The translations under genes were made by a program, and so were the position numbers. A stretch of 64,000 nucleotides of DNA from contig CANJJE010000012.1 of assembly GCA_947474755.1 (NCBI GenBank), positions 1 to 64,000 of the forward strand, in the 5' to 3' direction. The notes under the pieces are model-generated. The model was given only the letters and a program-made list of their open reading frames with translations, did no database searches and was not told the origin of the DNA. Below are positions 35,187 to 58,433 of the stretch, one piece after another (position 1 is the first letter of the stretch; every line of letters begins with the position of its first letter). Source of the stretch: Burkholderiales bacterium. Its GTDB lineage: Bacteria > Pseudomonadota > Gammaproteobacteria > Burkholderiales > Burkholderiaceae_C.

Positions 35187-35220
35187 GGTGAGTCACTCCG
35201 GAGGGCGAGCGGATGATTCG

Positions 35221-35258
35221 GTCGCAGATGGCGACATCGACATTGGCACGCATTGCCA
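35221..35258. promoter_or_regulatory. Two inverted repeats between gmk and prsR
   Basis: GTCGC-N5-GCGAC (35221-35235) and TGGCA-N5-TGCCA (35244-35258) lie side by side in the divergent region. Both have the same 5-base spacer, as dimeric regulator sites often do. No regulator can be named. Confidence 0.35.
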
Positions 35259-35346
35259 CATATTCATCAATAAACGCGCCAGTGTCGGCGGGTACGAGTG
35301 TGAGAATTCAGGCGGGATCACGGGAGTCCCGACGCCTTATCTTCGG

Positions 35347-36756: not shown

Positions 36757-36777
36757 AGCGATCGATCTGCAGCCTGG

Positions 36778-37572
36778 CTATTTGCGTTCGTTGCGCGCCA
36801 GCAGGCGCTTCACGTGTTCCACCGGAATGGCGTAGCTGATGCCCGATGGATGAGTGAGGGCGGACTCGCGAGTGCCCTTCAGTGCAACCATGTTCACCAC
36901 ACCGACTACGGCGCCAGATTCCGCATCGAACAAGGGGCCGCCACTGTTGCCGGGGTAGGCGGTCGCATCGAGCTGTAGCAAGTCGAAGGCGCCTTCCTTC
37001 AAAGCCTTGATGGCGCGGCCGTCGAGTTGTCGCGCGCTCGGGCTTGGAAGTGCCACCGAAGTGATCGCTGCCACGATGCCGCGGTGGGTGACCGGAGACA
37101 GGCCCAAGTTGCTCCCCATCGGGAAACCGATGAAGGCAACCGTCTGGCCTTCGCGCACAGGCTGCTCCAGACCCAGGGCAAGCGCCGGCACAGCGGCTCC
37201 CTCGAAGCGCAGCAGGGCCAGGTCATGGGCTTTGTCGACCTCGATGATCTCGAGGCGCCGCACGCTGTCCTGTCCCGATGCGCCTGGGGTGTAAACAACC
37301 AGGCTGATGTTGCTGGCGTCATCTTCTGTGGCGCGCGTAATCACATGCGCGTTGGTGACCAGCAGATTCCCGTCGCCGACAACGAAACCCGTGCCGCTGA
37401 AGCCGAAGCGTGGGCTCTGTGATTCCTTGTAGAAGCCGACGGCGAGCACCGACGGCTTCACCCGAGCTATCAGTCCCGGCAGCGCATCTGCAGCGCTGAC
37501 GGCCACGCAGAGACACATCAGTGCACCAGTCATCAGGGCCTTGCACATGATTCTGCGAGCCGCATTCATCAT
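36778..37572 (-). CDS. Secreted trypsin-like serine protease (S1C)
   Basis: This 264-residue protein has a signal peptide or anchor (ALMTGALMCLCVAVSAADA). The catalytic residues are His in NLLVTNAHVI, Asp in KAHDLALLRF and Ser in AYPGNSGGPLF. There is no PDZ domain as in DegP/DegS. The ATG at 37572 follows the nucleotidyltransferase stop by two bases with GAGG 8 bases upstream, so it is the last gene of the HprK-related operon. It converges with prsR, 21 bases between stops. It might process the secreted partner of the operon; that is inference. Confidence 0.85.
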   Translation of the reverse strand: MMNAARRIMCKALMTGALMCLCVAVSAADALPGLIARVKPSVLAVGFYKESQSPRFGFSGTGFVVGDGNLLVTNAHVITRATEDDASNISLVVYTPGASGQDSVRRLEIIEVDKAHDLALLRFEGAAVPALALGLEQPVREGQTVAFIGFPMGSNLGLSPVTHRGIVAAITSVALPSPSARQLDGRAIKALKEGAFDLLQLDATAYPGNSGGPLFDAESGAVVGVVNMVALKGTRESALTHPSGISYAIPVEHVKRLLARNERK

Positions 37573-37574
37573 GT

Positions 37575-38666
37575 TCAGCGCGCCTCTTCCGGCTGCTTCT
37601 TCTTCAGCCGCATGAATGCCTTGCGCACCAGGTGTGGCACCGCCAGGTACATCGGCATGCGCAGGTGATGCGATCGTACGTACAGGAGCCATCGGGCCAA
37701 TCCTGTGTAAGGTCCATCGCAATGCGGATGATCGGGGCGCAGCGCAAGGCCCAGCAATGAAGACATCACGTGTCTCGACATGGTGCTGCGATCCAGCGAT
37801 TGAACCTGCTGCTCGAGGCGTTGCGGCGGAGCCGTCGAAAACAACCGGTTCAGATGAGTCAGCGCATGCGAGAGCGGAATCTGCAAGCCCAGGTGTGTGG
37901 CGCGATCGAGCAGTTCGTCCCAGAAGCCAGGCGCCCGGGAGAAGTGAATGACCAGGTCATTCAGGTCGAGCAGGTCTCGCAAACCCCGGCCGAAATCGCC
38001 CTCCATGAACAGATGCGCTGCGCTGTGCAGAACCATGTCGACAGGGTGCAGGGTGTATAGCCCGGGCTGTCCCGGAATGGGCTGAATTCGGCTCAGCAAC
38101 TCGGCGCCATCGACCTTGAAGCGTGAAGTCGGTGGCGTGATGGTGTGGTGGAGATCGATGGTGGTGCCGCGATGGACATGGCGTATCGGTGGAATCTCGT
38201 GCATCCACTCGCGGTAATAACGGACGTTGTACGGGTCGCGCTCTTCGCTGATCCAGCCCGCTGCGAACAGTGCATCCTCGACCGCGTCGATGGCCTGACG
38301 GCTTACCATCAGATCGATGTCGCTGAATATTCGTCCACGCGCCGCTGGCAAGTTTGCAAGCAGATACGCCGCGCCCTTGAGCACGACGACCGGTGTATCG
38401 ATGGCAGAAAGGGCTCGCCGGATGCACCGAGCCTCCCAGGTCACTTCGTGCCACTGCCTCTCGGCCAGTCTGAGCGCGCTTTGCAGATGCATCTGGGGCC
38501 CGGAAGGAACTTGATCCAGCCAGCCGTTGGCCAGGAAATGGTGCGCCAGGCGACCTTGCAAGCCTGCCTGACGTGCTTGCCCGAGCAGAGACTCCCACTC
38601 TCGCAGACTGGGTGAAGGCTGATGAGTCGGATCAGCCCATATGCTGGAAAGCAGTGCTTCGTTCAA
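37575..38666 (-). CDS. Nucleotidyltransferase family protein of the HprK-related system
   Basis: This 363-residue protein of the NTP_transf_5 type has VVLKGAAYLLANLP (about 94-107) and the metal-binding pair GRIFSDIDLMVS (Asp116, Asp118). A third acidic/His element lies in TTIDLHHTI. Relatives occur beside HprK-like kinases in exosortase-bearing genomes and beside kinases in lasso-peptide clusters. The TTG start overlaps the kinase stop (TTGA). Substrate unknown; it may transfer a nucleotide to a peptide or small molecule. Confidence 0.8.
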   Translation of the reverse strand: MNEALLSSIWADPTHQPSPSLREWESLLGQARQAGLQGRLAHHFLANGWLDQVPSGPQMHLQSALRLAERQWHEVTWEARCIRRALSAIDTPVVVLKGAAYLLANLPAARGRIFSDIDLMVSRQAIDAVEDALFAAGWISEERDPYNVRYYREWMHEIPPIRHVHRGTTIDLHHTITPPTSRFKVDGAELLSRIQPIPGQPGLYTLHPVDMVLHSAAHLFMEGDFGRGLRDLLDLNDLVIHFSRAPGFWDELLDRATHLGLQIPLSHALTHLNRLFSTAPPQRLEQQVQSLDRSTMSRHVMSSLLGLALRPDHPHCDGPYTGLARWLLYVRSHHLRMPMYLAVPHLVRKAFMRLKKKQPEEAR

Positions 38667-39583
38667 AGCCGACGTGACGTCACCAGGGAGTCGAAAAGCC
38701 GCTCGGCTTCGCCTAATGAGCTGTACTCGAAGTCATGGCAGCTGCTGCGATCGACGAGCCCGCCCAGCGTCTGAAAGCCGAGCAATCCGAGCGCGCCGTA
38801 GTTGAACGCGTTCCGGCCCAACTCCAGCATGCTGTCGGCACGTGACCTTGCCGTAAGGCGGGCGCCAGCGCCAGCGACATATCTTGGAAAAATTACCCAC
38901 CCTGGCTCGGCCATCGAATCGATCTGGTCAAGATGCCTGCGTTCGACTTTCAGGTGACCCACCGAGCCCTTCGACGTGCCATGGACCACGTCACCGAAGA
39001 CCGCATCCGGTGCATGTGCGCGGATGACATCGAGCGACTCATTCTTCAAGCTCACCGGGCGACACAAGGGGGCGATCGCGCCATCCGTGGTTGAGATCAA
39101 GGCCAATTCATCCGACAGCAAGCGCCAGCCACGGCATATCAATCCTGCGCAAAGCGTGCTTTTCCCTGACCCGGGTGGCGCGGCAAGGACGGCGGCAAGC
39201 CCGTCGCGTTCAATGACCGCAGCGTGAAGAATGAGGTACTGATGCGCCTGGGTTGAGATACACCAGTTCATCGCCCACTCCAGCAGCGGGAAAGCATGGC
39301 TTTGGGGCAGAGGTTCAAACGGGAAGCCGCCGTCAAACACGAACCGCACCTGAGGCCGAATCCAGCGGTGCAAACCCGCTCCGCGATCCATCAGCACTTC
39401 AAAATCAAAAAATTCTGTGTTTGCGGCCAGACCATAGTCTGCATAGAGCAAGTGGATGCCCTTTTGTATCGCCGGAATGTCAGATCTGATTCGAAAGTTG
39501 AAGGGCCCGGTTCTGATGCCAAGACCAGCACCTGCCAGTCGCTGACCGATCTCGAACGTACTCAGCGAGGACACCACCGTCAT
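38663..39583 (-). CDS. HprK-related kinase A
   Basis: This 306-residue protein is related to the kinase domain of HPr kinase/phosphorylase. It has LILHAAVIERDGLAAVL, then Walker A APPGSGKSTL (138-143 GSGKST) and the SDEL acidic pair. The N-terminal 100 residues are specific to this family (HprK_rel_A, as I recall it). It lacks the full HprK loop for HPr. Its target is unknown. It overlaps the PqqD-like gene by 4 bases upstream and the nucleotidyltransferase by 4 bases downstream. Confidence 0.87.
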   Translation of the reverse strand: MTVVSSLSTFEIGQRLAGAGLGIRTGPFNFRIRSDIPAIQKGIHLLYADYGLAANTEFFDFEVLMDRGAGLHRWIRPQVRFVFDGGFPFEPLPQSHAFPLLEWAMNWCISTQAHQYLILHAAVIERDGLAAVLAAPPGSGKSTLCAGLICRGWRLLSDELALISTTDGAIAPLCRPVSLKNESLDVIRAHAPDAVFGDVVHGTSKGSVGHLKVERRHLDQIDSMAEPGWVIFPRYVAGAGARLTARSRADSMLELGRNAFNYGALGLLGFQTLGGLVDRSSCHDFEYSSLGEAERLFDSLVTSRRL

Positions 39584-39852
39584 TCGCGCGACACGTCGAT
39601 CAGATTTGCGCCAGCCAATTGCTCCAGGATGAAGGGGAGGGCTGCAAGCACAACGTCTACCTCAGACCCGCTCGCGCCCCACCTCTCGACCAGCAAGTCC
39701 ATGTCCGTCGCACCTTCCTCCACGCACATGAGAGCACGAGCTGTCGGGATATCGAGATGGTGTGTCAGTCCAGAGGCTTCGTTGAAGACGACGTACTCGT
39801 TGTCCCACTCCAGCCAGTGAAATGACCCGGTCTGGTTTAGTCGCAGTTGCAC
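39580..39852 (-). CDS. PqqD-like peptide chaperone of the HPr-rel-A system
   Basis: This 90-residue protein has the winged-helix PqqD layout: YVVFNEASGLTHHLDIPTARALM, then a helix pair ending in FILEQLAGANLIDVSRE. PqqD-type domains bind leader peptides and deliver them to modifying enzymes. The start is a GTG with a weak Shine-Dalgarno. It lies 33 bases after the Tat-signal protein gene and overlaps the kinase by 4 bases. Confidence 0.8.
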   Translation of the reverse strand: MQLRLNQTGSFHWLEWDNEYVVFNEASGLTHHLDIPTARALMCVEEGATDMDLLVERWGASGSEVDVVLAALPFILEQLAGANLIDVSRE

Positions 39853-39885
39853 TGGCGTGTGAATAAAGTAGTCTCGCCCCGTATT

Positions 39886-40473
39886 TCAATATGAATTGAT
39901 GATTCTGAAAAGAGTCGTCGCGCTGCTTGACTGGGGGCTTGAATACAACGCCAATACTTCGGATGGTGTGTAGGGGAACACGGCGGTACCGAGCGGCATG
40001 ATCGAGTTTAGAAGCGCGGCAATCCAAAACGCTTCATCGCTGCTCGTCTGGGCGGTCAAGATGCTGATCAAAGAAGATGTTGAACCAGCTCCAAAGACAG
40101 CACCAAAGGTCGAATTTTGAGTGAAGGTAAACGTGCCGACTACGCAAGTTGCAGTTGCGTCTGTGGCCGAGTAGCCAGGCCAGTTGGACAAGGTCTTGAA
40201 ATAGCCGGGCGGTCTACCCCTGCACGTCGGGAGACCAGTCGCTTTGGAGTGCGCCATTGATTGGACACCGGAGGCGGAGCAAATTTGTCCACCAGCCGTT
40301 ACTGCAGAGGTGAAAGCCAACGTCTTGATTGGCACGGCGCTAGCCGCTACCGCAGAGCCCTTGACCATGCCGTTGAGCAAGAGGCGACGGCGAGAAGCCT
40401 GAATCGATTCATTGTTCGCGTGCTGAGGCATTGATGGCTTGTCCGAATTGTCGACGTCAGTAATTTTAACCAT
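39886..40473 (-). CDS. Twin-arginine-signal protein of unknown function, first gene of the HprK-related operon
   Basis: This 195-residue protein has an N-terminal SRRRLLLNG twin-arginine motif (about residues 28-36) and a following hydrophobic stretch VKGSAVAASAVPIKTLAF, so export by Tat is likely. The mature part has three cysteines (GGQICSAS, LPTCRGRP, TATCVVGTF) and is rich in Ser/Thr/Ala. I recognise no domain. GAGG lies 6 bases before the ATG (preceded by an in-frame GTG). Codons are visibly less GC-rich than in neighbouring genes. It may be the substrate or product carrier of the PqqD/kinase/nucleotidyltransferase genes; that is inference. Confidence 0.65.
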   Translation of the reverse strand: MVKITDVDNSDKPSMPQHANNESIQASRRRLLLNGMVKGSAVAASAVPIKTLAFTSAVTAGGQICSASGVQSMAHSKATGLPTCRGRPPGYFKTLSNWPGYSATDATATCVVGTFTFTQNSTFGAVFGAGSTSSLISILTAQTSSDEAFWIAALLNSIMPLGTAVFPYTPSEVLALYSSPQSSSATTLFRIINSY

Positions 40474-40498
40474 CACTTGCCTCGCGAATGCTATAAAT

Positions 40499-40516
40499 AT
40501 AGTTATAAGTAACTAT
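40499..40516. promoter_or_regulatory. AT-rich palindrome upstream of the Tat-signal gene
   Basis: ATAGTTA-TAAG-TAACTAT is a perfect 7-bp inverted repeat with a 4-base spacer, 26 bases upstream of the start codon, overlapping several -10-like hexamers (TATATT, TATAAC). It looks like an operator within the operon promoter. Confidence 0.5.
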
Positions 40517-40525
40517 GGGTGCTGG

Positions 40526-40540
40526 CATTGAAGTTCAATG
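40526..40540. promoter_or_regulatory. Second palindrome upstream of the Tat-signal gene
   Basis: CATTGAA-G-TTCAATG is a perfect 15-base palindrome, 10 bases from the previous one and 20 bases beyond the sugar transferase stop. It could be a second operator or a weak terminator stem without T-run. Confidence 0.4.
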
Positions 40541-40561
40541 AGTTTTGCATGATGCGCGCGC

Positions 40562-41953
40562 TCATTGTCCTTCTCGGAAAATCACAACACTGACTGTTTC
40601 TATCAGGACGAGAATATCAAGGAGCAACGAATTGTTCTTGACATAGTAGAGATCAAACTGATGCTTTTTTCGAGCGTCGTCAAGAGAGTCGCCGTAGTGG
40701 TAGCGAACCTGAGCCCAACCGGTGATGCCGGGTTTGACGGAGTGGCGCAATTCATAAAATGGAATTTCCGCTTTCAGTTTATCTACAAACGTCGGACGTT
40801 CCGGGCGCGGACCGACGAGACTCATTTCGCCAAAAAGCACACTGAAAAGTTGCGGTAGCTCGTCGATGCGGGTTTTCCGCATGAAAGAACCAACGCGAGT
40901 GATGCGCGGGTCATTTTTTGAAGCCCAGCGAGCCACACCGTCTCGTTCGGCATCGGCACGCATGCTTCGGAACTTCATGCACATGAAGACGCGGCCGCCC
41001 AAGCCTACGCGAGCCTGACGATAAATGACTGGGCCTGGACTGTCCAGCCAAATGGCCAAAGCTGCAAGTGCCATGATAGGCGCTGTGAGTATCAACAACA
41101 CGCTTGAACTGACAATATCAAAGGCGCGCTTCATGAACTGCCGCATCTGTCCCTGGACAAAGCCATCACCGTAAACCAGCCAGCTTCCTTTGAGGCTATC
41201 GATGCGAACTTCGCGTTTATTTTTCTCGCTGAACCCTGCCAGATTCAAAACCGATACTCCACGAATTCGGCACTCCAGCAGCTGGTCCATCGGGATGGTG
41301 CCTCCGCGTTGTTCTCGTACGGCGATCACAATCTCTTTGACTGAATATCGAGAAACCAAATCAATCAAGGAAGATTTGCTAGGAAACACGGGGATGCCGT
41401 TCTTCTTGGTTTCTGAATCCTCTGACGTGGCGAAGAAACCGACCACGTTACGCGCCGATCGTCCTGGTGACTGCAATTCTGCCGCTATGGATTGAGCTTC
41501 TTCTCCCGTGCCGACTATCAATACCGAAGGCAAGGTTGTCACCCGTTGCATAACGTAGAAGCATCCGCGAGATAAAACCAAACCCAGAGCAAGGTAAGAA
41601 ATTGCGGCTGGTATCAATTGCTCGATATAGCCGCGATCTGCCACGAACCTCAACACCAGACTTGTAACGTAGCCACCAATGCAAATTGCACCCACGGTGC
41701 GGAGAGCCTTGGCACCGAGTGAGATGGTTTTTGGGCGATACAGTCCGACTAGCGCATACATCAGTGCCATGACGAGCGCGAAGAAAGTGGCTCCAAACAG
41801 AACGAGAGGAATCTCCGGGACTGCGTCGGGGATGGTCATGTACCTGCTGGTCAAGGTCGACGCAGCCAACAGCATGGCTACAAAGCACAAAGACAGGTCG
41901 ACCACCATGCCGGCCGGGGCACTGGGCAGAACATCTTGTCGGTAGAGCCTCAT
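40562..41953 (-). CDS. XrtA-system polyprenyl-phosphate sugar transferase (EpsB_2 type)
   Basis: This 463-residue initiating glycosyltransferase has four to five N-terminal membrane helices and a CoA-binding-like domain (VLIVGTGEEAQSIAAEL). The C-terminal bacterial sugar transferase domain follows: MKRAFDIVSSSVLLILTAPIM, SPGPVIYRQARVGLGG, MKFRSMR, RKTRIDELPQLF, MSLVGPRPERP, KPGITGWAQVRY. It moves a sugar-1-phosphate to undecaprenyl phosphate to begin the repeat unit of the exopolysaccharide. It is divergent from prsK. GC content is lower than in most of the window. Confidence 0.92.
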   Translation of the reverse strand: MRLYRQDVLPSAPAGMVVDLSLCFVAMLLAASTLTSRYMTIPDAVPEIPLVLFGATFFALVMALMYALVGLYRPKTISLGAKALRTVGAICIGGYVTSLVLRFVADRGYIEQLIPAAISYLALGLVLSRGCFYVMQRVTTLPSVLIVGTGEEAQSIAAELQSPGRSARNVVGFFATSEDSETKKNGIPVFPSKSSLIDLVSRYSVKEIVIAVREQRGGTIPMDQLLECRIRGVSVLNLAGFSEKNKREVRIDSLKGSWLVYGDGFVQGQMRQFMKRAFDIVSSSVLLILTAPIMALAALAIWLDSPGPVIYRQARVGLGGRVFMCMKFRSMRADAERDGVARWASKNDPRITRVGSFMRKTRIDELPQLFSVLFGEMSLVGPRPERPTFVDKLKAEIPFYELRHSVKPGITGWAQVRYHYGDSLDDARKKHQFDLYYVKNNSLLLDILVLIETVSVVIFREGQ

Positions 41954-42037
41954 GGTGGACTGCCTCTCATCGATCAGAACAGTTTCGAACTTGTCAAGTC
42001 CTCGCTAGCTGCGACCAGACGCTGCTGTCAAGGGGGA

Positions 42038-42107
42038 GGTCGCGACAACGAATTATTCTTGGGCGTCCTTGCCGTAGCATCCCCTGACTAGGGGGTCTGT
42101 CGCGACC
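42038..42107. promoter_or_regulatory. Paired GTCGCGAC palindromes between epsB-type gene and prsK
   Basis: The 381-base divergent region (41954-42334) has no gene. It holds GGTCGCGACA at 42038-42047 and its inverted copy TGTCGCGACC at 42098-42107; the two 8-bp palindromic centres are exactly 60 bases apart. This is a likely regulator-binding arrangement controlling one or both divergent genes. The rest of the region shows no clear promoter consensus. Confidence 0.5.
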
Positions 42108-42334
42108 TTTCGCACGAGAGTTCGAGTTTTGCGGCCTTGTCACGATTGATTACTGCGAGCGTTGCCGTAAACATCCTCCTTGACCGGACGCTGTTTGACC
42201 CGCCGCGTCGCACATTCCGGCTTTGATTCGGCCTCAGCAGTCATTCATGACGCTCCTGCGTTGCCCATCTGATCGATCAATTCGCCAGGCGCGTTGACAG
42301 CAGCCACGCTGATCTTGGCGCCAATGCAAGCTGA

Positions 42335-44446
42335 ATGAACCCTCACGACAACACATTCATGGCCTGGGGCTTCGGGCTGGTAGGGGTGACCTATCTGGCC
42401 TTTGCGTTGACGCTTCTTCGAATCGGAGAGTGGCGTTTGCCCGTCAGTCGATCGGGCCGGGCGCTTTTCGGTGCCGTCTGTTGCAGTTCCATCTGGGGAT
42501 GGTTGACCCTGGCCGGCGTGTTGCGTGACGACGCGCTGCTCGGGTTCATCGCGTCCTTGTTTGACGCTGGCCGCTATGGCTTGTGGTTGGCATTCCTGCT
42601 CCAGCTGAGACCGGAGAAGTCAGAGAGTGCATCAGGGTGGGGATCGTCGCTGAGCAAACTGTCACTGTTCCTGGTGACCTTGGTCGTGATCGGGCAGGTG
42701 CTTCGCTACCACGAACCCGGGGACTCCTTCCTGCAAGCTCGCGGGCAGCCGATGATGTCGATGGCGCTGTCGATTTTTGGTCTGGTGCTGATCGAGCAGG
42801 TTTTCCGCAATGTGGATCCCGACTCACGCTGGAGCGTCAAGCCCGTCAGTGCGGCGTTGGCGGGCTCATTCGCGTTCGACCTGTACATGTATTCGCAGGC
42901 CGTGATCTTTGGCAGCGTCGACGCTGACGCTCAAAGTATCCGTGGTGCGGTCCATGCGCTGATGGCGCCCCTGCTGTTTGTCTCGACTTCGCGGCTGGGC
43001 ATCGACTGGACCTCGAAGCTGCGAGTGTCGCGCAGCGCCGCATTCCATTCCGCCACCTTGTTGATTTGTGGCCTCTACCTGCTGTTGATATCGGCGGTGG
43101 GTTACTACGTCAAATATTTTGGCGGAGATTGGGGCCGCGCATTGCAGCTTTGCGTGGTGTTTGCCTCATTGATATTTCTGGTTTTACTCACAGTATCTGG
43201 AGCCGCCCGGGCCAAACTACGAATATTCCTCAGCAAGAATTTTTTCAGATACCGGTATGACTACCGCGATGAATGGCTCAAATTCACTGAGGCGCTTTGC
43301 GCGCAGGGCACACCTCAGGAAATGGGCCAACAGGTGATCCGAGGTTTGGCAGACCTGGTGGAGAGCCCTGGAGGTGGGCTGTGGATGAAGAGTCCGGAAG
43401 CGAGTGGCTTTCGGCAAACGGTGCGGCTGAACATCGATTTCACTTCGGTGAGCGAGGAGGAAGACTCCGAACTGAGCATGGCCCTCAAGCGCGAGAAGGT
43501 GGTTGTCAACCTGGAGGAGTACCGATCTTTCCCCGGGCGATACGGGTCGATCGCCTTGCCGCCGTGGCTGCAATCCATGCCGCAGGCTTGGTTGATTGTT
43601 CCGCTGATCGTTGGGGACAAGCTGATCGGATTTGTCGTGCTGTTGCGGTCACGGACTCCTCTGGATGCCAACTGGGAAGTTCATGACCTGCTGAAGACAG
43701 CGAGCCGTCAGGCCGCGAGCTTTCTCGCGCAGATGGTGGCCACGGAGTCCTTGCTGGAAGTGCGCAAGTTCGATGCCTTCAATCGAATGTCGGCGTTCGT
43801 GGTTCACGATCTGAAGAACATCGTGACGCAGCTGTCGCTGATGATGAAGAACGCCAAGCGGTTGCACGCCAACCCCGAATTCCAGCAGGACATGCTGGAC
43901 ACCGTCGACAACTCACTGGAGAAAATGCGCCAGCTGATGGCGCAGTTGCGTGAAGGCACGACACCTGCAGGCACTGCCTTTGGTGTCGATCTGGTCGCGG
44001 TGGCGCGTCGAATCGAAGCGCACACGACCAGCCGCGGCAGGAGCCTTGAACTGCGCCGCTTGCAGCCAGCGACCGCGCGCGGGCACGAAGAACGGATCGA
44101 GCGCGTGATCGGGCACCTGGTCCTCAATGCACTGGAAGCCACCGATCCGCAGGGGCAGGTCTGGCTGGAGCTCGATACCCAGGGCGATCGCGCACGCATC
44201 GTGGTTGGCGACACCGGCCATGGCATGTCGGCCGAATTCATTCGCGACCGGCTGTTCAAGCCCTTTCAGTCGACCAAGTCAACCGGCATGGGCATTGGCG
44301 CCTACGAGAGTTCGCAATACATCCACGAGCTCGGAGGCAAGATCTCGGTGGTGAGCGAGCTGCAGCGAGGCACGCAAGTGACCTTGCTGATCCCGCTTTT
44401 TCACGCGTCGGTTGAATCTGACCTCGACATGCTCAAGTCCCAGTGA
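42335..44446 (+). CDS. prsK: PEP-CTERM/XrtA system histidine kinase PrsK
   Basis: This 703-residue protein has about eight N-terminal membrane helices (MASE-like, residues about 8-290) and a GAF-like middle domain (about 330-470). A HisKA region follows with the phospho-acceptor His in AFVVHDLKN (about 490), and an HATPase core with HLVLNALEATD, GDTGHGMS (about 624) and STGMGIGAYES. It should phosphorylate PrsR and so control exopolysaccharide/PEP-CTERM genes. No strong Shine-Dalgarno precedes the ATG. Confidence 0.92.
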   Translation: MNPHDNTFMAWGFGLVGVTYLAFALTLLRIGEWRLPVSRSGRALFGAVCCSSIWGWLTLAGVLRDDALLGFIASLFDAGRYGLWLAFLLQLRPEKSESASGWGSSLSKLSLFLVTLVVIGQVLRYHEPGDSFLQARGQPMMSMALSIFGLVLIEQVFRNVDPDSRWSVKPVSAALAGSFAFDLYMYSQAVIFGSVDADAQSIRGAVHALMAPLLFVSTSRLGIDWTSKLRVSRSAAFHSATLLICGLYLLLISAVGYYVKYFGGDWGRALQLCVVFASLIFLVLLTVSGAARAKLRIFLSKNFFRYRYDYRDEWLKFTEALCAQGTPQEMGQQVIRGLADLVESPGGGLWMKSPEASGFRQTVRLNIDFTSVSEEEDSELSMALKREKVVVNLEEYRSFPGRYGSIALPPWLQSMPQAWLIVPLIVGDKLIGFVVLLRSRTPLDANWEVHDLLKTASRQAASFLAQMVATESLLEVRKFDAFNRMSAFVVHDLKNIVTQLSLMMKNAKRLHANPEFQQDMLDTVDNSLEKMRQLMAQLREGTTPAGTAFGVDLVAVARRIEAHTTSRGRSLELRRLQPATARGHEERIERVIGHLVLNALEATDPQGQVWLELDTQGDRARIVVGDTGHGMSAEFIRDRLFKPFQSTKSTGMGIGAYESSQYIHELGGKISVVSELQRGTQVTLLIPLFHASVESDLDMLKSQ

Positions 44447-44576
44447 GGCTGGAGCAGCCGCGCTCAGCGATCGGCGGTGGGCTGCCCAAAATTCACGATC
44501 GACAAGGGGTTTTGGTCACGGCCACCCGAGCAAACGTTGTAACAGCCGCTTTCATCATGCCATCATCGTCACTTGA

Positions 44577-44598
44577 GGTAATGAGCGTTTTCATTACC
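44577..44598. promoter_or_regulatory. Inverted repeat upstream of the export lipoprotein gene
   Basis: GGTAATGA-GCGTTT-TCATTACC is a perfect 8-bp inverted repeat 80 bases before the first gene of the polysaccharide operon, within a 231-base intergenic region. It is a good candidate operator for the whole 20-kb operon. I could not see a convincing sigma-54 -24/-12 pair here. Confidence 0.5.
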
Positions 44599-44677
44599 GG
44601 TAGATAACAGTCGTGTGCGAAATCCGGGGGGCGCTCCTATCGCCCAGCCGAGTCATTCTGAAAAAAGGGGATAAACC

Positions 44678-45313
44678 ATGAATATGTTCACGACGCCCAA
44701 GGGACAAGGAATTCGACTTGCGTTGGTCCTGATCGGGTCGTTGCTGTTGTCCGCCTGTGGCATTTTCCCTGGCAATCTTCCGCCAGCGCCACCTAGTGCG
44801 TCGACCCAGGACTACAGCTACGTGGTCGGGCCGGGTGACAACCTCAACATCATCGTATGGCGCAACCCAGAGCTGTCGTTGTCGGTGCCGGTGCGGCCAG
44901 ATGGCAAGTTTTCAACACCGCTGATCGACGAGATGGTGGTCCAGGGCAAGAATTCGGTCGAAATTGCTCGTGATATCGAAAAACTGCTGGGCAAATACGT
45001 CAGGGATCCGGTGGTGACAGTGATCGTCACTGGTTTCGTCGGCCCTTATGACCAGCAGATTCGCGTCGTTGGAGAGGCCGCAAAGCCTCAGGTGCTTGCC
45101 TACAAGCAGAAGATGACCGTCCTCGACGTGATGATTGCCGTTGGAGGCCTCACTGATTTCGCGGCGGGCAACGATGCAACCATCTTGCGCACTGCCGATG
45201 GGAACAAGCAATACGCGGTTCGATTGAAAGATCTGGTCAAGCGCGGCGACATCTCCGCTAATGTTGAGATGAAGCCGGGCGATATCCTGATCATCCCGCA
45301 AAGCTTCTTCTGA
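44678..45313 (+). CDS. XrtA-system polysaccharide export lipoprotein (Wza/EpsA-like)
   Basis: This 211-residue protein has a lipoprotein signal with lipobox LLLSAC near residue 26. A Poly_export domain follows (YVVGPGDNLNIIVWRNPELS) with two SLBB-type beta-grasp repeats (IRVVGEAAKPQVLAYKQKMTVLDVMIAVGGL, KPGDILIIPQSFF). It forms the outer-membrane secretion channel. It is the first gene of the plus-strand polysaccharide operon. Confidence 0.93.
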   Translation: MNMFTTPKGQGIRLALVLIGSLLLSACGIFPGNLPPAPPSASTQDYSYVVGPGDNLNIIVWRNPELSLSVPVRPDGKFSTPLIDEMVVQGKNSVEIARDIEKLLGKYVRDPVVTVIVTGFVGPYDQQIRVVGEAAKPQVLAYKQKMTVLDVMIAVGGLTDFAAGNDATILRTADGNKQYAVRLKDLVKRGDISANVEMKPGDILIIPQSFF

Positions 45314-45408
45314 ACGTCGCACCTGAATCCGGCTTGCTTTCCAAGCGTGCTCTGACGCCCTGACGCGTCTCCGTTTCACGTTCCATCCATCCAAGATCGA
45401 TCACCCGA

Positions 45409-46992
45409 ATGGAAGAGTTGCTTGCCCAGTTGTCCACCCTCGCCAGGAGCATGTGGCGATTCCGCTGGCCGTCGATCCTTGTGGCATGGTCGGTGGCCAT
45501 CGTCGGTGCGGTGGGTGTCTTTCTGATCCCGGATCAGTACGAAGCGTCATCGCGCATCTACGTGGATACCGAATCGATCCTGAAGCCGCTGATGTCCGGT
45601 CTTGCAGTGCAGCCCAACGTGGATCAGCAAGTCATGATGCTGAGCCGGACACTGATCAGCCGTCCGAACGTCGAAAAACTGGTTCGCATGGCCGACCTCG
45701 ATTTGAAAAGCCAATCCAAGGCGGAGCAGGAGGCCTTGGTAGCCGGGCTGATGGACAAGCTGCACATCCAGTCGGTCGGCCGGGACAACCTCTACACATT
45801 GTCCTTCCGTGACTCGGACTCCGCCAAGGCTCAGCGCGTCATCCAATCCTTTGTGTCGATCTTCATCGAGTCGAGCCTGGGGGCCAGCCGCAAGGACTCT
45901 GATGCCGCCAAGGTTTTCATCAACGAACAGATCAAGGCCTATGAAAACAAATTGCTGGAAGCTGAAACGCGTTTGAAGGAATTCCGCTTGCGCAATATCG
46001 AAAGCCTGAATGCCGAAGGCGTCGATTCCGTCGTGCGCATCGGTCAACTGTCCGATGCGCTTGCGGCGGCGCAACTTCAGTTGCGTGAAGCGGAGCAATC
46101 GCGCGATTCGGTCAGGCAGCAACTGATCGACGCGAAATCGCAGCCGGGCAACACGGCCTCCATGAACTCATTGCTCGAAGAGTCTGCGCTTTCCGTCGCC
46201 ACGCCGGAAATCGACGCACGGATCGCGACACAAAGACAGAACCTGGACGCGATGCTGCAGAGATTTACTGAACAGCACCCCGACGTGATCACCACCCGAA
46301 AGTTGTTGCGGGACCTTGAAGAACAGAAGAAAAAGGAAGTCAGGGAATTGCGCAAGGCAGCCATGGCGGCTCCGGCGGTGGCCGCGGCCAATGGCACCAG
46401 CCTCGTGTCTCAGGAACTCAACAGGCTGATGGCTACGTCCGAGGTTCAAGTCGCGGCGCTGAGGGCCAGAGTGGCCGAGTATTCAGCCCGCTTCAACAAC
46501 GCGCGCGAAGCTGCGAAGTCGGCCCCTCAGCTGGAAGCTGAAGCCTCGCAACTCAACCGTGATTACGCCGTCCACAAGGCAAACTACGAGGATCTTGTCA
46601 AGCGACGCGAGTCGGCGTCAATGTCCGGCGAACTCGACTCGACGGCTGGCGTAGCCGACTTCCGCTTGATCGATCCACCGCGGGTCTCTCCAACGCCGGT
46701 GTCGCCGAATCGCTTCATCCTGCTGCCTGTGGCGATGTTGGCTGCCCTGGCGGCTGGGTTCCTCACAGCGTTCATCGCCAGTCAATTGCGCCCCGTGTTC
46801 CACAGCGCGGCGCAACTACGAACAAAGCTTGACCTGCCCTTGCTGGGCACGGTGTCCCTGGTGACCAACCCAGCAGATGCCCGGCTCGAAAAAGTCAGAC
46901 TGATCAAGTTTGCAGTCTCTTCGGGCGGCCTGGTGGGCTTCTTCGGTTTGACGATGCTGGGCCTGGCACTGATGGCCGCCAGAAAGGGCTGA
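45409..46992 (+). CDS. XrtA-system polysaccharide chain-length determinant (Wzz/GumC-like)
   Basis: This 527-residue protein has a membrane helix near the N-terminus (WPSILVAWSVAIVGAVGVFLI) and a long periplasmic coiled-coil region. The conserved Pro-rich motif IDPPRVSPTPVSPNRF lies before a second membrane helix (about 440), and a final hydrophobic helix ends the protein. The tyrosine kinase is encoded by the next gene. It controls polymer length and connects to the export lipoprotein. Confidence 0.92.
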   Translation: MEELLAQLSTLARSMWRFRWPSILVAWSVAIVGAVGVFLIPDQYEASSRIYVDTESILKPLMSGLAVQPNVDQQVMMLSRTLISRPNVEKLVRMADLDLKSQSKAEQEALVAGLMDKLHIQSVGRDNLYTLSFRDSDSAKAQRVIQSFVSIFIESSLGASRKDSDAAKVFINEQIKAYENKLLEAETRLKEFRLRNIESLNAEGVDSVVRIGQLSDALAAAQLQLREAEQSRDSVRQQLIDAKSQPGNTASMNSLLEESALSVATPEIDARIATQRQNLDAMLQRFTEQHPDVITTRKLLRDLEEQKKKEVRELRKAAMAAPAVAAANGTSLVSQELNRLMATSEVQVAALRARVAEYSARFNNAREAAKSAPQLEAEASQLNRDYAVHKANYEDLVKRRESASMSGELDSTAGVADFRLIDPPRVSPTPVSPNRFILLPVAMLAALAAGFLTAFIASQLRPVFHSAAQLRTKLDLPLLGTVSLVTNPADARLEKVRLIKFAVSSGGLVGFFGLTMLGLALMAARKG

Positions 46993-46997
46993 ACCAC

Positions 46998-47933
46998 ATG
47001 ACCAGCCTGATCGAACAAGCTGCTCGACGACTCGAGCAACTGCGCAACGCAGGAGCGCAGATTCCCGATCGGATCCCGACTTCGCAGGCGCCCCCATCGC
47101 TCTCGCAAGCGGCGGTTGCGGTCGCTGCGCCGCTGATATCCACACCTCCGGTGAAGCACGCGGTGGCGCCGAGCCAGACCTCGCGCCAGGTGACGCTCGA
47201 CCTCGATATGTTGAGCGCGGCGGGTGTGGTGACGCCGAATGCGCCGCGTTCGTACTCTGCCGATCAGTTTCGATTGATCAAGCGGCCGCTGTTGGCGAAT
47301 GCGAAAGCCAAGGGCGATCAAGCCCTGAAGCACGGCAACCTGATCATGGTGACCAGTTCATTGTCGGGTGAGGGAAAGAGTTTCACCTCCCTCAATCTTG
47401 CGATGAGCATCGCGATGGAGCTGGACAACACGGTGATGCTGGTGGACGCTGATGTGGCGCGGCCTTCGATCTTGCGCATGCTGGGTTTGCAGACCATGCC
47501 GGGTCTGCTTGATGTGCTCGAAGGCGGCAAGGACCTGCACAGCGTGCTGCTGAAGACAAACATAGACAAGCTGACCATCTTGCCCAGCGGGACGAGCCGC
47601 CCCAAGGCAACCGAGCTGCTGGCCAGCGACGCAATGCGCCGTTTGCTGGACGACATGGCGGCGCGTTACCCGGACCGCATCATCATTTTCGACTCGCCGC
47701 CGCTGCTGTTGACCACCGAATCAAGGGTGCTAGCGACGCAAATGGGGCAGGTGGTGATGGTGGTGCAGGCCGACCGAACGCTGCAGTCCGATGTCGACCA
47801 TGCGCTGTCGACCATCAAGAACTGCGCGAACATCAATCTGGTCCTCAACAAAGTCCGTGGCAGCGGTTCAGATGGGTACAGCTACGGCTACGGCTACGGC
47901 TACGGGGAACCCAGTGGCAATGCAACGGCCTGA
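46998..47933 (+). CDS. XrtA-associated tyrosine autokinase (BY-kinase)
   Basis: The 311-residue protein has Walker A SLSGEGKS (121-128), Walker A-prime TVMLVDADVARPS and Walker B RIIIFDSPPLLL. Its C-terminal tail GYSYGYGYGYGE has five tyrosines, the autophosphorylation cluster. Cycles of phosphorylation regulate polymer length. The tail is encoded by tandem GGCTAC repeats. It starts 5 bases after the chain-length gene and overlaps the next gene by 14 bases. Confidence 0.93.
   Translation: MTSLIEQAARRLEQLRNAGAQIPDRIPTSQAPPSLSQAAVAVAAPLISTPPVKHAVAPSQTSRQVTLDLDMLSAAGVVTPNAPRSYSADQFRLIKRPLLANAKAKGDQALKHGNLIMVTSSLSGEGKSFTSLNLAMSIAMELDNTVMLVDADVARPSILRMLGLQTMPGLLDVLEGGKDLHSVLLKTNIDKLTILPSGTSRPKATELLASDAMRRLLDDMAARYPDRIIIFDSPPLLLTTESRVLATQMGQVVMVVQADRTLQSDVDHALSTIKNCANINLVLNKVRGSGSDGYSYGYGYGYGEPSGNATA
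47876..47905 (+). repeat. Hexanucleotide repeat encoding the tyrosine tail
   Basis: About four tandem GGCTAC-like units encode Tyr-Gly pairs. Gain or loss of units would stay in frame and change the number of phosphorylatable tyrosines. Confidence 0.7.
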
Positions 47934-49503
47934 GTCCTGGCGTCCCTCGCTGGTGCCACGCCCTGGCTTCACGTGGCACCACTGGCTCGGGCGGCAGGTC
48001 TTGTCGCCGGTGGTTGGTGTGATCGGTTTGGCCAGCCTTGCCGCCCACGCTCAGGACCAGGCCTCGCCATCGGGGTTGTTCCTGCAGCCGTCGCTGAGCG
48101 TCAGCGAGACCTTTACCAGCAATGCGGGTCTCGACCGCGGCAGCGATGCGCGCGCGGATTTGATCACCGATATCAGTCCCGAGCTGCGGCTGAGCCGCCG
48201 CTCCGGGCGCATCGTTGGCGACGTCGACTACGCGCTGCACGGCCTGTTGCACGCGCGACGATCGTCTCTTGACGAGGTGCGACAGGCGCTGAGTGCCAAA
48301 GGTACCGCAGAGGCGATCGACAACTGGGCCTATGTCGACGGCCGCGCCAGCATCTCTCAGCAGAGCATCTCGGCGCTCGGGACCCGATCGGTGGATCGCA
48401 ACCTCGCCAACTCCAATCGTGCCGAAGTGTTGACGTACCAGCTCGCGCCCTATGTGCGGGGCCCCCTGGGCGGCTTCGCCAACTATCTCGCGCGGTGGGA
48501 CTGGACCAGCAGCAACAGCAGTGGCTCCAGCGCCAAATCGGCATCGAATGACGCGTCATTCGTCATCAGCTCCAGCGAGGCGCTGTTTTCGCGCCTGGGC
48601 TGGTCGCTGAATGCTTCGCGGCAAAGCTCGAAGTTTGCAAACCAGAACAGCCAGGACGCCACGCGCTTCAGTGGTCAGCTGACGTTCGCCGTGACACCGG
48701 AGTTCCAGTTGTCGGCAGGCGCCGGCCGCGAACGCAACGACTACCAGTTTCCGGGCCAGCAAAGTAGCACCACCTGGAGCGGCGGCTTCATCTGGAGGCC
48801 GAATGAACGCACGCGGCTGGAGGTGACGCGTGAACACCGATTCTTCGGCAACGCCTACAACATCCGTTTCGAGCACCGCACCCCGCGTACCGTCTGGAGC
48901 TTTGTCGATTCGCAGGACGTCAACACGACAGCAGGCGCAAACGGCGCCAATTCACCGAGCACCGCGTTCGATCTGCTGTATGCACAGTTTGCCTCCATCG
49001 CGCCCGATCCGGTGCAGCGCACCGCGTTGGTCGATGCCTTTCTGCGTAGCAATGGTCTGTCGCGCGAGTCCCTCGTCAATGGCGGGTTCCTGACCAACGC
49101 CGCCTCCATCCAGCGCCGGCAGAACCTGTCGCTGGCGCTGATCGGCCTGCGCAGCACCTTGCTGCTGTCGACCTCGCGCAACGACGCGCGTGCAACCAGT
49201 TCGACGGCGACCGATGTTGGCGATTTGTCGAATGGCCGCAATCTCCATTCGACGGGTTTCGGCATCAACCTGTCGCATCGCCTGACGCCTTTGTCTGCCC
49301 TCAGCGCGGATTTCTCGCTGTCCAGGAATAGTTCCACCGGAGATAACCGCAGGACCCGTCTGACGTCATTGGCAACCACCTACACCACGCGTCTGAGCCA
49401 GCAGATCGACCTGTCGATATCGGCGCGCCGAACCTTGTTCAACAGCGACGCAAATCCCTACAACGAGAGCGCCGTCGTGGCCAACCTGAAGGTGCGGTTC
49501 TAA
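47920..49503 (+). CDS. PEP-CTERM system-associated outer-membrane beta-barrel protein
   Basis: This 527-residue protein has a signal peptide (VVGVIGLASLAAHA|QDQ). Many alternating hydrophobic strands end in a C-terminal Phe (VVANLKVRF*), the usual outer-membrane barrel signature. It belongs to the TIGR03016-type family always found between the kinase and the ATPase in XrtA loci. Possibly the outer-membrane part of polymer export or a structural porin. The ATG at 47920 overlaps the kinase gene; further upstream in-frame codons are shadows. Confidence 0.88.
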   Translation: MQRPESWRPSLVPRPGFTWHHWLGRQVLSPVVGVIGLASLAAHAQDQASPSGLFLQPSLSVSETFTSNAGLDRGSDARADLITDISPELRLSRRSGRIVGDVDYALHGLLHARRSSLDEVRQALSAKGTAEAIDNWAYVDGRASISQQSISALGTRSVDRNLANSNRAEVLTYQLAPYVRGPLGGFANYLARWDWTSSNSSGSSAKSASNDASFVISSSEALFSRLGWSLNASRQSSKFANQNSQDATRFSGQLTFAVTPEFQLSAGAGRERNDYQFPGQQSSTTWSGGFIWRPNERTRLEVTREHRFFGNAYNIRFEHRTPRTVWSFVDSQDVNTTAGANGANSPSTAFDLLYAQFASIAPDPVQRTALVDAFLRSNGLSRESLVNGGFLTNAASIQRRQNLSLALIGLRSTLLLSTSRNDARATSSTATDVGDLSNGRNLHSTGFGINLSHRLTPLSALSADFSLSRNSSTGDNRRTRLTSLATTYTTRLSQQIDLSISARRTLFNSDANPYNESAVVANLKVRF

Positions 49504-49505
49504 CC

Positions 49506-50597
49506 ATGTACGAATCGTTCTATGGGCTGACCAGCAAACCGTTCCAGCTCAATCCCGATCCCAGCTTCTATTTCGGCAGCAAGCAGCACAGCCGCGCCAA
49601 GGCCTATCTCGAATATGGCGTGTCTCGGCACGAGGGCTTCGTGGTCATCACCGGCGAGATCGGCGCTGGCAAGACGACGCTTCTGCGCGCCCTGATCGAT
49701 AGCCTGCACGGCAGCGATGTGGTCATCGGTCACCTTGTGACCACTCAACTTGGTGCGGAAGACACGCTGCGCATGGTCGGGGCCGCGTTTGGCTTCCACG
49801 TCAAGGATGTGTCGAAGGCCCAGTTGCTGATCACGCTGGAAGCGTTTCTGGTCAATCAGACGAGCCAGGGCAAGCGCTGTCTGCTGATCGTCGATGAGGC
49901 ACAGAATCTCACGGCGCAGGCGGTGGAAGAGTTGCGCATGCTGTCGAACTTCCAGTTCGGCAATCAGGCCTTGCTGCAAAGCTTCATGGTCGGCCAACCA
50001 GAGTTTCGCGAGATTCTTCAGCGCCCGGAGATGGAACAGTTCCGTCAACGCGTTGCCGCCACCTGCCACATCGGGCCACTGGATGCCGAGGAGACGCAGC
50101 GATACATCGAACACCGCCTGACGTGTGCCGGATCCAACGGCCAACCCAGCTTCGAGCCCGCTGCTTTCGACGCCATCTTCAAGGCCACGCGCGGTATCCC
50201 TCGGCGTATCAATTCGGTCTGTGACCGACTGCTGCTGCTTGGTTTCCTGGCCGATAAAACCTACCTTACCCGCGCTGACGTCGATGAAGTGGTCCAGGAG
50301 ACCACCGAAGAGTCGGCTATTCCGTCCAAGCCTTTCGAGCCGGTGGGTTCGGCGTTGCATGCATCGAGTTCGCAACTGGTGCCTGACATCGACCTGTCCC
50401 AGATCAACCTGGCACCGGAATCAGCGCACGAGATGAGCGGTCAACTGGCGAACCTGATGGCCGAGCAGCGCCTGGATCAGTTGCAGCGTCTCGAGCGCAG
50501 CGTCCTCAGGCTCGAACGTCAAAACGTCCAGTTGATCAGCTTGCTGCAGAAGCTAGTCAGTGCGATCAAGACGACATCGGATGAAGGCATCCGATGA
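49506..50597 (+). CDS. XrtA-associated AAA ATPase (ExeA-like)
   Basis: This 363-residue ATPase has N-terminal MYESFYGLTSKPFQLNPDP, Walker A GEIGAGKT (50-57), Walker B CLLIVDEAQNL and RRINSVCDRLLLLGF sensor helices. A C-terminal coiled coil (QLANLMAEQRLDQLQRLERS) follows. It probably energises or assembles the export apparatus; it belongs to the TIGR03015-type family. It starts 2 bases after the barrel gene stop and overlaps the deacetylase by 4 bases. Confidence 0.92.
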   Translation: MYESFYGLTSKPFQLNPDPSFYFGSKQHSRAKAYLEYGVSRHEGFVVITGEIGAGKTTLLRALIDSLHGSDVVIGHLVTTQLGAEDTLRMVGAAFGFHVKDVSKAQLLITLEAFLVNQTSQGKRCLLIVDEAQNLTAQAVEELRMLSNFQFGNQALLQSFMVGQPEFREILQRPEMEQFRQRVAATCHIGPLDAEETQRYIEHRLTCAGSNGQPSFEPAAFDAIFKATRGIPRRINSVCDRLLLLGFLADKTYLTRADVDEVVQETTEESAIPSKPFEPVGSALHASSSQLVPDIDLSQINLAPESAHEMSGQLANLMAEQRLDQLQRLERSVLRLERQNVQLISLLQKLVSAIKTTSDEGIR

Positions 50598-51502
50598 GCC
50601 TGTCAACCGTGAACCAGGGCGCACCCCTGCGCAACGCCCTGACGATCGATGTCGAAGACTACTTTCAGGTGTCCGCTTTCGCGCCCTACATCGCGCGCAG
50701 CGACTGGGACCAACGCGAATGCCGTGTCGAGCGCAATGTCGATCGCATCCTGGCGCTGCTGGCGCGTCATGACACCCGCGCGACCTTCTTCACCCTCGGC
50801 TGGATCGCACAGCGCTATCCGCAAATGGTTCGCCGCATTGCTGAGGCTGGGCACGAGGTCGCCAGCCACGGATACGGCCACCAGCGCGCCAGCGACCTGA
50901 CCGAAGCCGAGTTCACCGCCGATATTCAAAGCGCTAAGCACATCCTCGAAGACCTGTGCGGTGTACCCGTCACGGGCTATCGAGCACCGAGCTTTTCGAT
51001 CGGCACGGGCAATCTGTGGGCCTTCGACTGTCTGGCGCGTGCCGGCTACCGCTACAGCTCCAGCATCTACCCCATCGCACACGATCACTACGGCATGCCC
51101 GATGCGCCGCGCTTCGCGCACCGCGTCAACGACAGCCTGATCGAAGTACCGATCACTACTTTGCGACTGTTTGGGCGCAACCTCCCGTCCAGCGGTGGTG
51201 GCTATTTCCGGTTGCTGCCGTATGCGCTGTCTCGGTGGATGCTGCGCCAGGTGCAGGCACGCGACAAGCAATCGGCGATCTTCTATTTCCATCCGTGGGA
51301 AATCGATGCCGATCAACCCCGCGTCGCCGGGATCGACGGCAAGACACGATTCCGCCATTACGTGAACATTGAACGGATGGAGCATCGGCTCGAGTGCCTG
51401 CTGCGCGATTTTCAGTGGGGTCGGATGGATCATCTCTTTCTTGATCGCCAGCCCCCATTGACCCCGCATCACGCCTCATCTGCCTTGCCGTGCCCCGCGT
51501 AG
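50594..51502 (+). CDS. XrtA-system polysaccharide deacetylase
   Basis: This 302-residue NodB-type deacetylase has metal site ALTIDVEDYFQV (Asp19/Asp22) and SHGYGHQ, catalytic-base region TGYRAPSFSIG, and the FYFHPWEID motif with the DUF3473 C-terminal region typical of the XrtA-linked group. It removes acetyl groups from the exopolysaccharide. It overlaps the FemAB-like gene by 13 bases. Confidence 0.92.
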   Translation: MSLSTVNQGAPLRNALTIDVEDYFQVSAFAPYIARSDWDQRECRVERNVDRILALLARHDTRATFFTLGWIAQRYPQMVRRIAEAGHEVASHGYGHQRASDLTEAEFTADIQSAKHILEDLCGVPVTGYRAPSFSIGTGNLWAFDCLARAGYRYSSSIYPIAHDHYGMPDAPRFAHRVNDSLIEVPITTLRLFGRNLPSSGGGYFRLLPYALSRWMLRQVQARDKQSAIFYFHPWEIDADQPRVAGIDGKTRFRHYVNIERMEHRLECLLRDFQWGRMDHLFLDRQPPLTPHHASSALPCPA

Positions 51503-52527: not shown

Positions 52528-52530
52528 GGC

Positions 52531-56491: not shown

Positions 56492-56492
56492 C

Positions 56493-58409: not shown

Positions 58410-58433
58410 CATGCAGGTGGCGCCATCTCCGCC

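Follow-up and report, generated by a model that had tools for sequence, protein, structure and literature searches.

Two papers describe bacterial systems in which a kinase related to HprK modifies a serine of a precursor. The paeninodin precursor receives a phosphate on its conserved C-terminal Ser from an HprK-like kinase, SyanK of Sphingobium phosphorylates its precursor Ser repeatedly, which places such a kinase in a proteobacterium already, and a nucleotidyltransferase homologue in pseudomycoidin biosynthesis is credited with one or two hexoses on the phospho-Ser, nucleotidylation being left open (PMC9266682). In the LPP system, encoded by the lpp cluster of Paenibacillus alginolyticus, a discrete RRE (recognition element), an HprK-like kinase and an NTP transferase are devoted to a single core Ser in a phosphorylated core of 45 amino acids; deletion of the transferase gene had no effect in the authors' host, and LPPs are called restricted to Bacillota (PMC13381572). 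Here we describe a cassette of comparable enzyme kinds in a 64,000-nucleotide stretch of DNA, hereafter the window, from a Burkholderiales bacterium (GenBank assembly GCA_947474755.1, contig CANJJE010000012.1, positions 1 to 64,000, forward strand). Its conserved core is four genes, encoding an exported protein that we call X, a PqqD/RRE protein, an HprK-related kinase A and an NTP_transf_5 nucleotidyltransferase.

From the comparison of sequences, we consider it rather probable that X is the dedicated substrate of this cassette, undergoing PqqD-guided Ser phosphorylation, a second modification and export by the twin-arginine translocation (Tat) pathway. The cassette probably phosphorylates one conserved Ser on X and perhaps glycosylates the same Ser. 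A preliminary description of the window had raised the idea of a modification system acting on an exported protein or peptide, and for an exported protein our comparisons favor that idea as the likeliest reading.

A four-gene core and its recurrence

The core and one neighboring gene lie together on the minus strand, and the whole arrangement is real. The features of the operon are as follows.

39886..40476, minus strand: X, the proposed target, 196 amino acids, with a twin-arginine leader (RRR at residues 29-31); start GTG, or ATG at 40473
40387..40392, minus strand: twin arginine R29-R30 of X, the start of a Tat-type leader, invariant in 38 aligned type-A X
40255..40278, minus strand: N-type Ser motif SASGVQSM, X residues 67-74, with S69 and S73 invariant; the Ser73 codon (40258-40260) is the proposed modification site
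39580..39852, minus strand: PqqD-family (RRE-type) chaperone; TIGR04353, 38.9 bits (cut-off 35)
38663..39583, minus strand: HprK-related kinase A with His120, P-loop Lys141 and Asp158-Glu159; TIGR04352, 376 bits (cut-off 200)
37575..38666, minus strand: NTP_transf_5 nucleotidyltransferase with Lys97, Asp116, Asp118 and Asp171; PF14907, 193.9 bits (cut-off 31.2); TTG start
36778..37572, minus strand: secreted trypsin-like protease, a neighbor and not a core member; Trypsin_2, 102.2 bits (cut-off 27.6)

The gene coordinates confirm the close spacing reported before (overlaps of 4 bases or gaps of 2-33): X and the PqqD gene are 33 bp apart, the PqqD/kinase and kinase/NTP_transf_5 pairs overlap by 4 bp each, and the protease gene follows after 2 bp. 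The family identities assigned earlier to the PqqD, kinase, nucleotidyltransferase and protease genes all hold over the cut-offs of the hidden Markov models (HMMs). The span given for the operon, 36778..40540, contains all five genes, its end lying 64 bp upstream of the first start codon. What does not survive of the five-gene operon is the place of the protease; the operon itself is real, tightly spaced and on one strand, but the protease falls outside the conserved unit. Both the PqqD protein and the kinase exceed the cut-offs of the named HPr-rel-A system (TIGR04353/TIGR04352), the nearest named relatives of the kinase belong to Burkholderiales, and the NTP_transf_5 gene is the sole match to PF14907 in the window genome. 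A promoter and terminator scan of 36700-42400 returned matches at chance level.

To place the cassette among its relatives, we drew on two genome samples. Matches above the TIGR04352 cut-off occurred in 32 of the 200 genomes sampled from the same order and 61 of the 398 sampled from the phylum; five genomes, including that of the window, are in both samples. A further 22 named loci came from relatives of the window kinase. The resulting set comprises 108 non-duplicate loci, the window included. It leaves out genome G366, where the kinase is in two fragments, and all counts exclude L139-L141 (below the family cut-off) and L085 (a duplicate of L034); L001-L030 are short copies of the window or of places represented by longer-flanked stretches.

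An X gene was found at 101 of the 108 kinase loci, a PqqD-like open reading frame (ORF) adjoins the kinase at 95, and an NTP_transf_5 gene occurs somewhere within the stretch at 96; all three accompany the kinase at 85. X mostly lies directly upstream of the PqqD gene, but at L062, L069 and L071 its place is downstream of the transferase, and at L098 it is on the opposite strand. This gene order recurs across the phylum sample, so the arrangement is more than chance. The preliminary description would have been undercut had the Tat-signal ORF been absent beside other HprK_rel_A genes, and X was found at the great majority of loci, though it was sought partly by its twin arginine.

The X genes are real genes, since the mature parts of 92 of the 101 have relatives at other loci (BLAST, E<=1e-4). 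A type-A X profile built from 38 sequences was run against the 200 order genomes. All 20 of its near-complete matches lie within ~2 kb of a kinase gene, and order genomes that lack the kinase yielded none; since 18 of the 20 had served to train the profile, it is the lack of matches elsewhere that carries information. The 12 of 32 kinase genomes without a near-complete match have other X types. Four further matches cover the C-terminal domain only, with neither leader nor motif, and two of these are in genomes that lack the kinase.

At 12 loci (L087, L095-L097, L105, L109-L112, L114-L116) a gene of a family that we call c6 directly follows the kinase, and at seven of these the transferase comes after it. 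The two members scanned (L087, L111) each combine TPR and sulfotransferase matches, and c6 is a possible third tailoring enzyme.

The serine motif and the kinase that tracks it

Outside its leader, X is a heterogeneous family. BLAST clustering of the mature parts gave 16 clusters (43, 29, 9, 4, 3, 2, 2 and nine singletons), and RRx[FLIMV] occurs in 96 of 101 leaders (partly by selection); because X was chosen partly by RR, the invariance of the pair is partly by construction. The window genome encodes TatC (215.5 bits). Window X matched nothing in Pfam or NCBIfam at E<=1, and no credible known family emerged for 38 type-A sequences searched against Pfam or 30 type-B sequences searched against NCBIfam and Pfam, stray matches touching one member each, or two for TIGR02811. 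Neither database detects a PEP-CTERM sorting tail in window X, whose C-terminus, TTLFRIINSY, lacks a PEP motif. AlphaFold predicts a confident domain in window X from about residue 81 (block means 82-97) and gives low confidence (46-57) to residues 1-80, which hold the leader and motif, so that the motif segment is probably flexible. The type-B prediction (mean pLDDT 61.7) was too poor to use. The type-A X domain (GYWKNH...LN) is also embedded in larger ORFs at L143, L144 and L145, three of four such stretches; these ORFs, 1046, 1301 and at least 2827 residues long, by eye resemble repeat-rich surface adhesins. In another X candidate, L073:10682-11125 (minus strand), the mature part consists of GN repeats plus a tail rich in Ser, and the motif is missing.

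Within each main type, a short Ser motif stands out at one end of the protein. In the type-A alignment (38 of 43 sequences) the sole invariant residues are R29, R30, S69, S73, W99 and N157; in the type-B alignment (29 sequences and L108) they are two Arg, a Lys, a Pro, a Thr, two Cys and the motif Ser. The motif lies either after the leader (N-type, SASGVQSM), in most type-A X some 1-22 residues beyond the presumed end of the leader, or near the C-terminus (C-type, SCWxSF in most type-B X, and TCFASL). In an unsupervised expectation-maximization (EM) search for a shared motif, the X sequences reached a score of 133.8 and eight shuffled sets 53.5-60.1; the real set had been given 80 starts and 40 rounds and the shuffles 25 and 25, and the X sequences are related.

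We then trained a profile on one class and scored the matching end of other clusters. The type-B profile found a C-end motif in all nine of L128-L136 (p 0.003-0.009), all four of L070, L074, L076 and L082 (p 0.0005), all three of L077, L079 and L080 (p 0.008-0.027), and L108 (p 0.001), and the type-A profile found an N-end motif in L099, L120, L124 and L126 (p 0.003-0.010). By eye, X at two plasmid loci added later (2 of 4 records), both annotated hypothetical protein, also has an RR leader and an end motif of either class: that of Vibrio alfacsensis bears CSITSCMSGNAS after the leader, with spacing one residue off the type-A pattern and no PqqD gene annotated there, and that of Sphingomonas parapaucimobilis ends in TCFLSVQNPRT and adjoins annotated PqqD, kinase and transferase genes. 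On these comparisons we divide the end motifs into two classes, in each of which one Ser is invariant or nearly so, and propose Ser73 as the modification site in window X. That the N- and C-type are one motif is no more than a suggestion. A single universal motif was considered and is not established, leave-one-cluster-out learning and cross-class profiles both having failed.

The enzymes retain the residues that are catalytic in relatives. All 108 kinases have the His, the P-loop Lys, the Asp and the Glu next to it, and we take these positions to map onto those of PadeK by way of HprK. The transferase DxD pair and third Asp are invariant in all 95 rows that have those columns, of 96 aligned, and 50 of the 51 PqqD proteins scanned (of 95 found) match TIGR04353 at E<=0.01. 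Sequence searches among solved structures returned no more than weak HprK matches for the kinase (E 0.19-0.2) and no credible relative of the transferase.

The kinase tree also separates the two motif classes. Of its 100 rows, the 51 labeled N-motif are divided from the 49 labeled C-motif by a single branch (SH-aLRT 95), although nine of the C-motif rows come from the window's own order; shuffled motif labels require 33.6 changes on average. This is a quick tree without a mixture model and with a long-branch warning, leaving out L073 and the loci without X, and its labels were assigned by the analyst, several (e.g. L060, L064, L078, L125) by eye. Such a correspondence, between the branch of the kinase and the end at which otherwise dissimilar proteins bear the Ser, is what a substrate relation would be expected to produce.

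The proposed sequence of events would begin in the cytoplasm, where the PqqD-like protein would bind the N-terminal leader of X and present X to the kinase. A single conserved Ser within a flexible terminal segment, Ser73 in window X, would receive one phosphate or perhaps several from the kinase, and NTP_transf_5 would then add a hexose or nucleotidyl group to the Ser phosphate. The leader would double as a Tat signal, by which the modified and already folded X would be exported and cleaved; the Tat pathway carries folded proteins, which suits a folded X modified in the cytoplasm. Mature X may work outside the inner membrane, often together with exopolysaccharide.

Several observations weigh against this account. 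X was not found at 7 of the 108 loci, at one of which (L119) the kinase runs to the contig end; 12 loci have no NTP gene in the stretch and 13 no recognized PqqD gene beside the kinase. A basic pair together with a hydrophobic stretch was required in the search for X, which was selected in part for its RR, and some of the X were chosen manually. An RRE-binding motif of the form [Y/W]xxPx[hydrophobic] occurs in 0 of the 101 X leaders. Leave-one-cluster-out motif learning reached p<=0.05 in only 12 of 101 X. The type-B profile was marginal for L081 and L083 (0.08) and picked another site in L137 (0.039). With the type-A profile, L125 gave a marginal result (0.056), L060, L064 and L078 gave none, and L073 fits neither class. 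The N and C profiles do not recognize each other (0 of 43 and 4 of 29), leaving the classes without a statistical link, so that their unity rests on inspection by eye and one EM run. W99 and N157 are as invariant in type-A X as the motif serines. Finally, X and kinase genes are linked, and concordant trees are therefore expected even without substrate contact.

Genomic context and competing explanations

Around the operon lie the genes of an exopolysaccharide locus of the exosortase A (XrtA) kind, delimited by NCBIfam matches.

40562..62198: XrtA exopolysaccharide locus around the cassette
35185-36756: PrsR, on the opposite side of the cassette from the rest of the XrtA locus

The locus comprises EpsB_2, PrsK, PrsR, export, chain length, TyrK, deacetylase, FemAB, XrtA and glycosyltransferase genes, a TIGR03108 amidotransferase and an O-ligase-like gene (TIGR03097). 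Elsewhere in the window genome there is a second exosortase-like gene (G000:C6:111311-112093, plus strand; 143 bits, below the XrtA cut-off). In the order sample, exosortase A was over its cut-off in 29 of 32 kinase genomes versus 22 of 168 others (Fisher p 7e-18), but in the phylum sample in 25 of 61, and we reject exosortase A as an obligate partner. Any EpsH-type exosortase occurs in 8 of the 39 kinase genomes without exosortase A (36 from the phylum sample and three from the order sample), and all 29 type-B X come from those 36. Many loci without exosortase A still sit among polysaccharide genes, typically in the order glycosyltransferase, glycosyltransferase, X, PqqD, kinase, transferase, amidotransferase. 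At L128-L136 and L148 the cassette adjoins phosphate-transport, sensor-kinase-like and glmU/glmS genes, not a polysaccharide locus; we take L128-L136 to be alphaproteobacterial because a named Sphingomonas locus has the same phosphate-transport and glmU/glmS neighbors. At L147, on the Vibrio alfacsensis plasmid, the cassette lies near 2-aminoethylphosphonate transport genes. In view of these mixed contexts, we regard the cassette as a unit that stands by itself, though one frequently found in exopolysaccharide loci.

The protease, which the preliminary description had made the closing member of the operon, is a variable neighbor. Of the 53 loci L031-L083, 47 had a called kinase and 6 did not; only 9 of the 47 have the protease immediately behind the transferase and on its strand, and it was rejected as a core member.

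Of the competing explanations, the one that fares best, with a small but appreciable chance of being right, holds that the product is a small peptide: a leader peptidase would free the motif segment after modification, as in LPP, and the rest of X would be a carrier. The shortest X lends it color, for L108:6094-6339 (minus strand) encodes 82 residues, a Tat-type leader followed by a mature part of only ~20 residues ending TASCLDSFNGL, and the LPP core is itself short (45 amino acids; PMC13381572). The median mature length of X, however, is 139 residues, counted from 26 residues past RR, window X has a confidently predicted folded domain, and the window genome has no LPP-type signal peptidase over the family cut-off.

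Alternatively, the kinase and nucleotidyltransferase might act on a sugar or lipid intermediate of the exopolysaccharide, with X as a co-expressed exported matrix protein. The frequent placement of the cassette among glycosyltransferase genes fits such chemistry, as does the c6 TPR-sulfotransferase gene directly after the kinase at 12 loci, but a PqqD protein has no obvious role in it, L128-L136 have phosphate-transport and glmU/glmS neighbors in place of a polysaccharide locus, and the kinase branch tracks the motif of X. We regard this explanation as unlikely. Equally unlikely, in our estimate, is an extension of the preferred reading in which X, as the modified substrate, would be a protein primer or anchor: a Ser-phosphate-sugar stub would be made in the cytoplasm and exported folded via Tat, and exopolysaccharide would be built on or ligated to the stub, with the TIGR03097 O-ligase-like gene as the candidate ligase. 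If so, the matrix would be covalently tied to a ribosomally made protein.

Less likely again is a kinase that acts as a regulator, phosphorylation near the leader controlling Tat export or the stability of X with no lasting modification. HprK itself is a bifunctional kinase/phosphorylase, and the N-type motif of most type-A X is close enough to the leader to suit such control; the C-type motif is at the opposite end of the protein, though, and the transferase is left unexplained. We give least credence to a purely structural motif, such as a docking segment, with any modified residue elsewhere: W99 and N157 are invariant too, and the case for the motif is statistical, with the leave-one-cluster-out test failed, but the segment is predicted at low confidence in window X and so is probably flexible, and the lasso and LPP kinases modify one conserved core Ser (PMC9266682, PMC13381572).

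Two pairs of neighboring genes elsewhere in the window appear to be tandem duplications. Adjacent pilin-like genes at 4365-4778 and 4896-5309 (minus strand) have almost identical N-termini, and adjacent large genes at 6740-8551 and 8739-11255 (minus strand) both start MADMLTPLQW.

Comparison with known systems

One named system is HPr-rel-A itself (TIGR04352/TIGR04353). The cassette contains that pair, but the model names give no substrate; to it we add X, the Ser motif and the two motif classes. HprK-related kinase A has had a family name without a stated substrate, and a substrate family, a candidate Ser and a two-class rule are now proposed for it. We found no paper on this cassette, on TIGR04352/HprK-related kinase, or on exosortase together with HprK or PqqD in the open-licence literature, an absence that such a search does not prove, and the main text of two RRE papers was without kinase, HPr, nucleotidyltransferase or TIGR04353; the LPP paper (PMC13381572) is the nearest.

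The likeness to the kinase/nucleotidyltransferase/PqqD tailoring of paeninodin, drawn in the preliminary description, is borne out by the HMM identities and by the lasso kinase precedent (PMC9266682). Like the phosphorylated lasso peptides, C-type X has a Ser near the C-terminus and is accompanied by an HprK-like kinase and a nucleotidyltransferase homologue, but a lasso is a threaded peptide, whereas X is a protein with up to 244 mature residues, and the kinase has Asp-Glu here at what we take to be the position of the Asp-Asp in the His-Lys-Asp-Asp set of lasso kinases (PMC9266682). The cyclase noted earlier as missing is indeed missing from the neighbors scanned: the sole asparagine-synthase-like one is TIGR03108 (1070.3 bits, cut-off 816.9), and the lasso cyclase model reaches 257.5 against a cut-off of 525. 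Bufferins, which are RiPPs (ribosomally synthesized and post-translationally modified peptides) made from Sec-signal precursors, offer another parallel in that their signal peptide doubles as the leader of a modified exported product; they differ in having a Sec and not a Tat signal, other enzymes and other chemistry.

The closest comparison is with LPP (PMC13381572). Both systems have an RRE, an HprK-like kinase and an NTP transferase, a likeness judged by enzyme kind and not by alignment with LppB, LppK and LppN; both have a precursor with a variable C-terminus, a core without a macrolactam cyclase, and clusters within polysaccharide loci. LPP, for its part, combines a leader of YxxP type with a SipW-like peptidase that removes it, and its clusters encode an MsbA-like exporter; the X leader has a twin arginine. 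LPP is called restricted to Bacillota, whereas the named hosts of the X cassette are Pseudomonadota. In the window genome (95.6% complete) no SipW-like (archaeal-type SpI) peptidase was over the TIGR02228 cut-off, the best match being 21.7 bits against 51.85 and on another contig, and no MsbA-like exporter was named among the five operon and 17 neighboring proteins scanned. Because two defining features that were tested, the peptidase and the leader motif, were not found, we do not claim LPP membership.

If X is the substrate as we propose, phosphorylation of Ser under RRE guidance would no longer be confined to peptides but would reach folded proteins exported by Tat, an export signal would serve as a modification leader, and a role of such products in exopolysaccharide matrices would come into view, an idea that the LPP authors call tempting (PMC13381572). 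By analogy, the cassette is best read as a Tat-exported, Gram-negative analogue of LPP, found mostly in exopolysaccharide loci.

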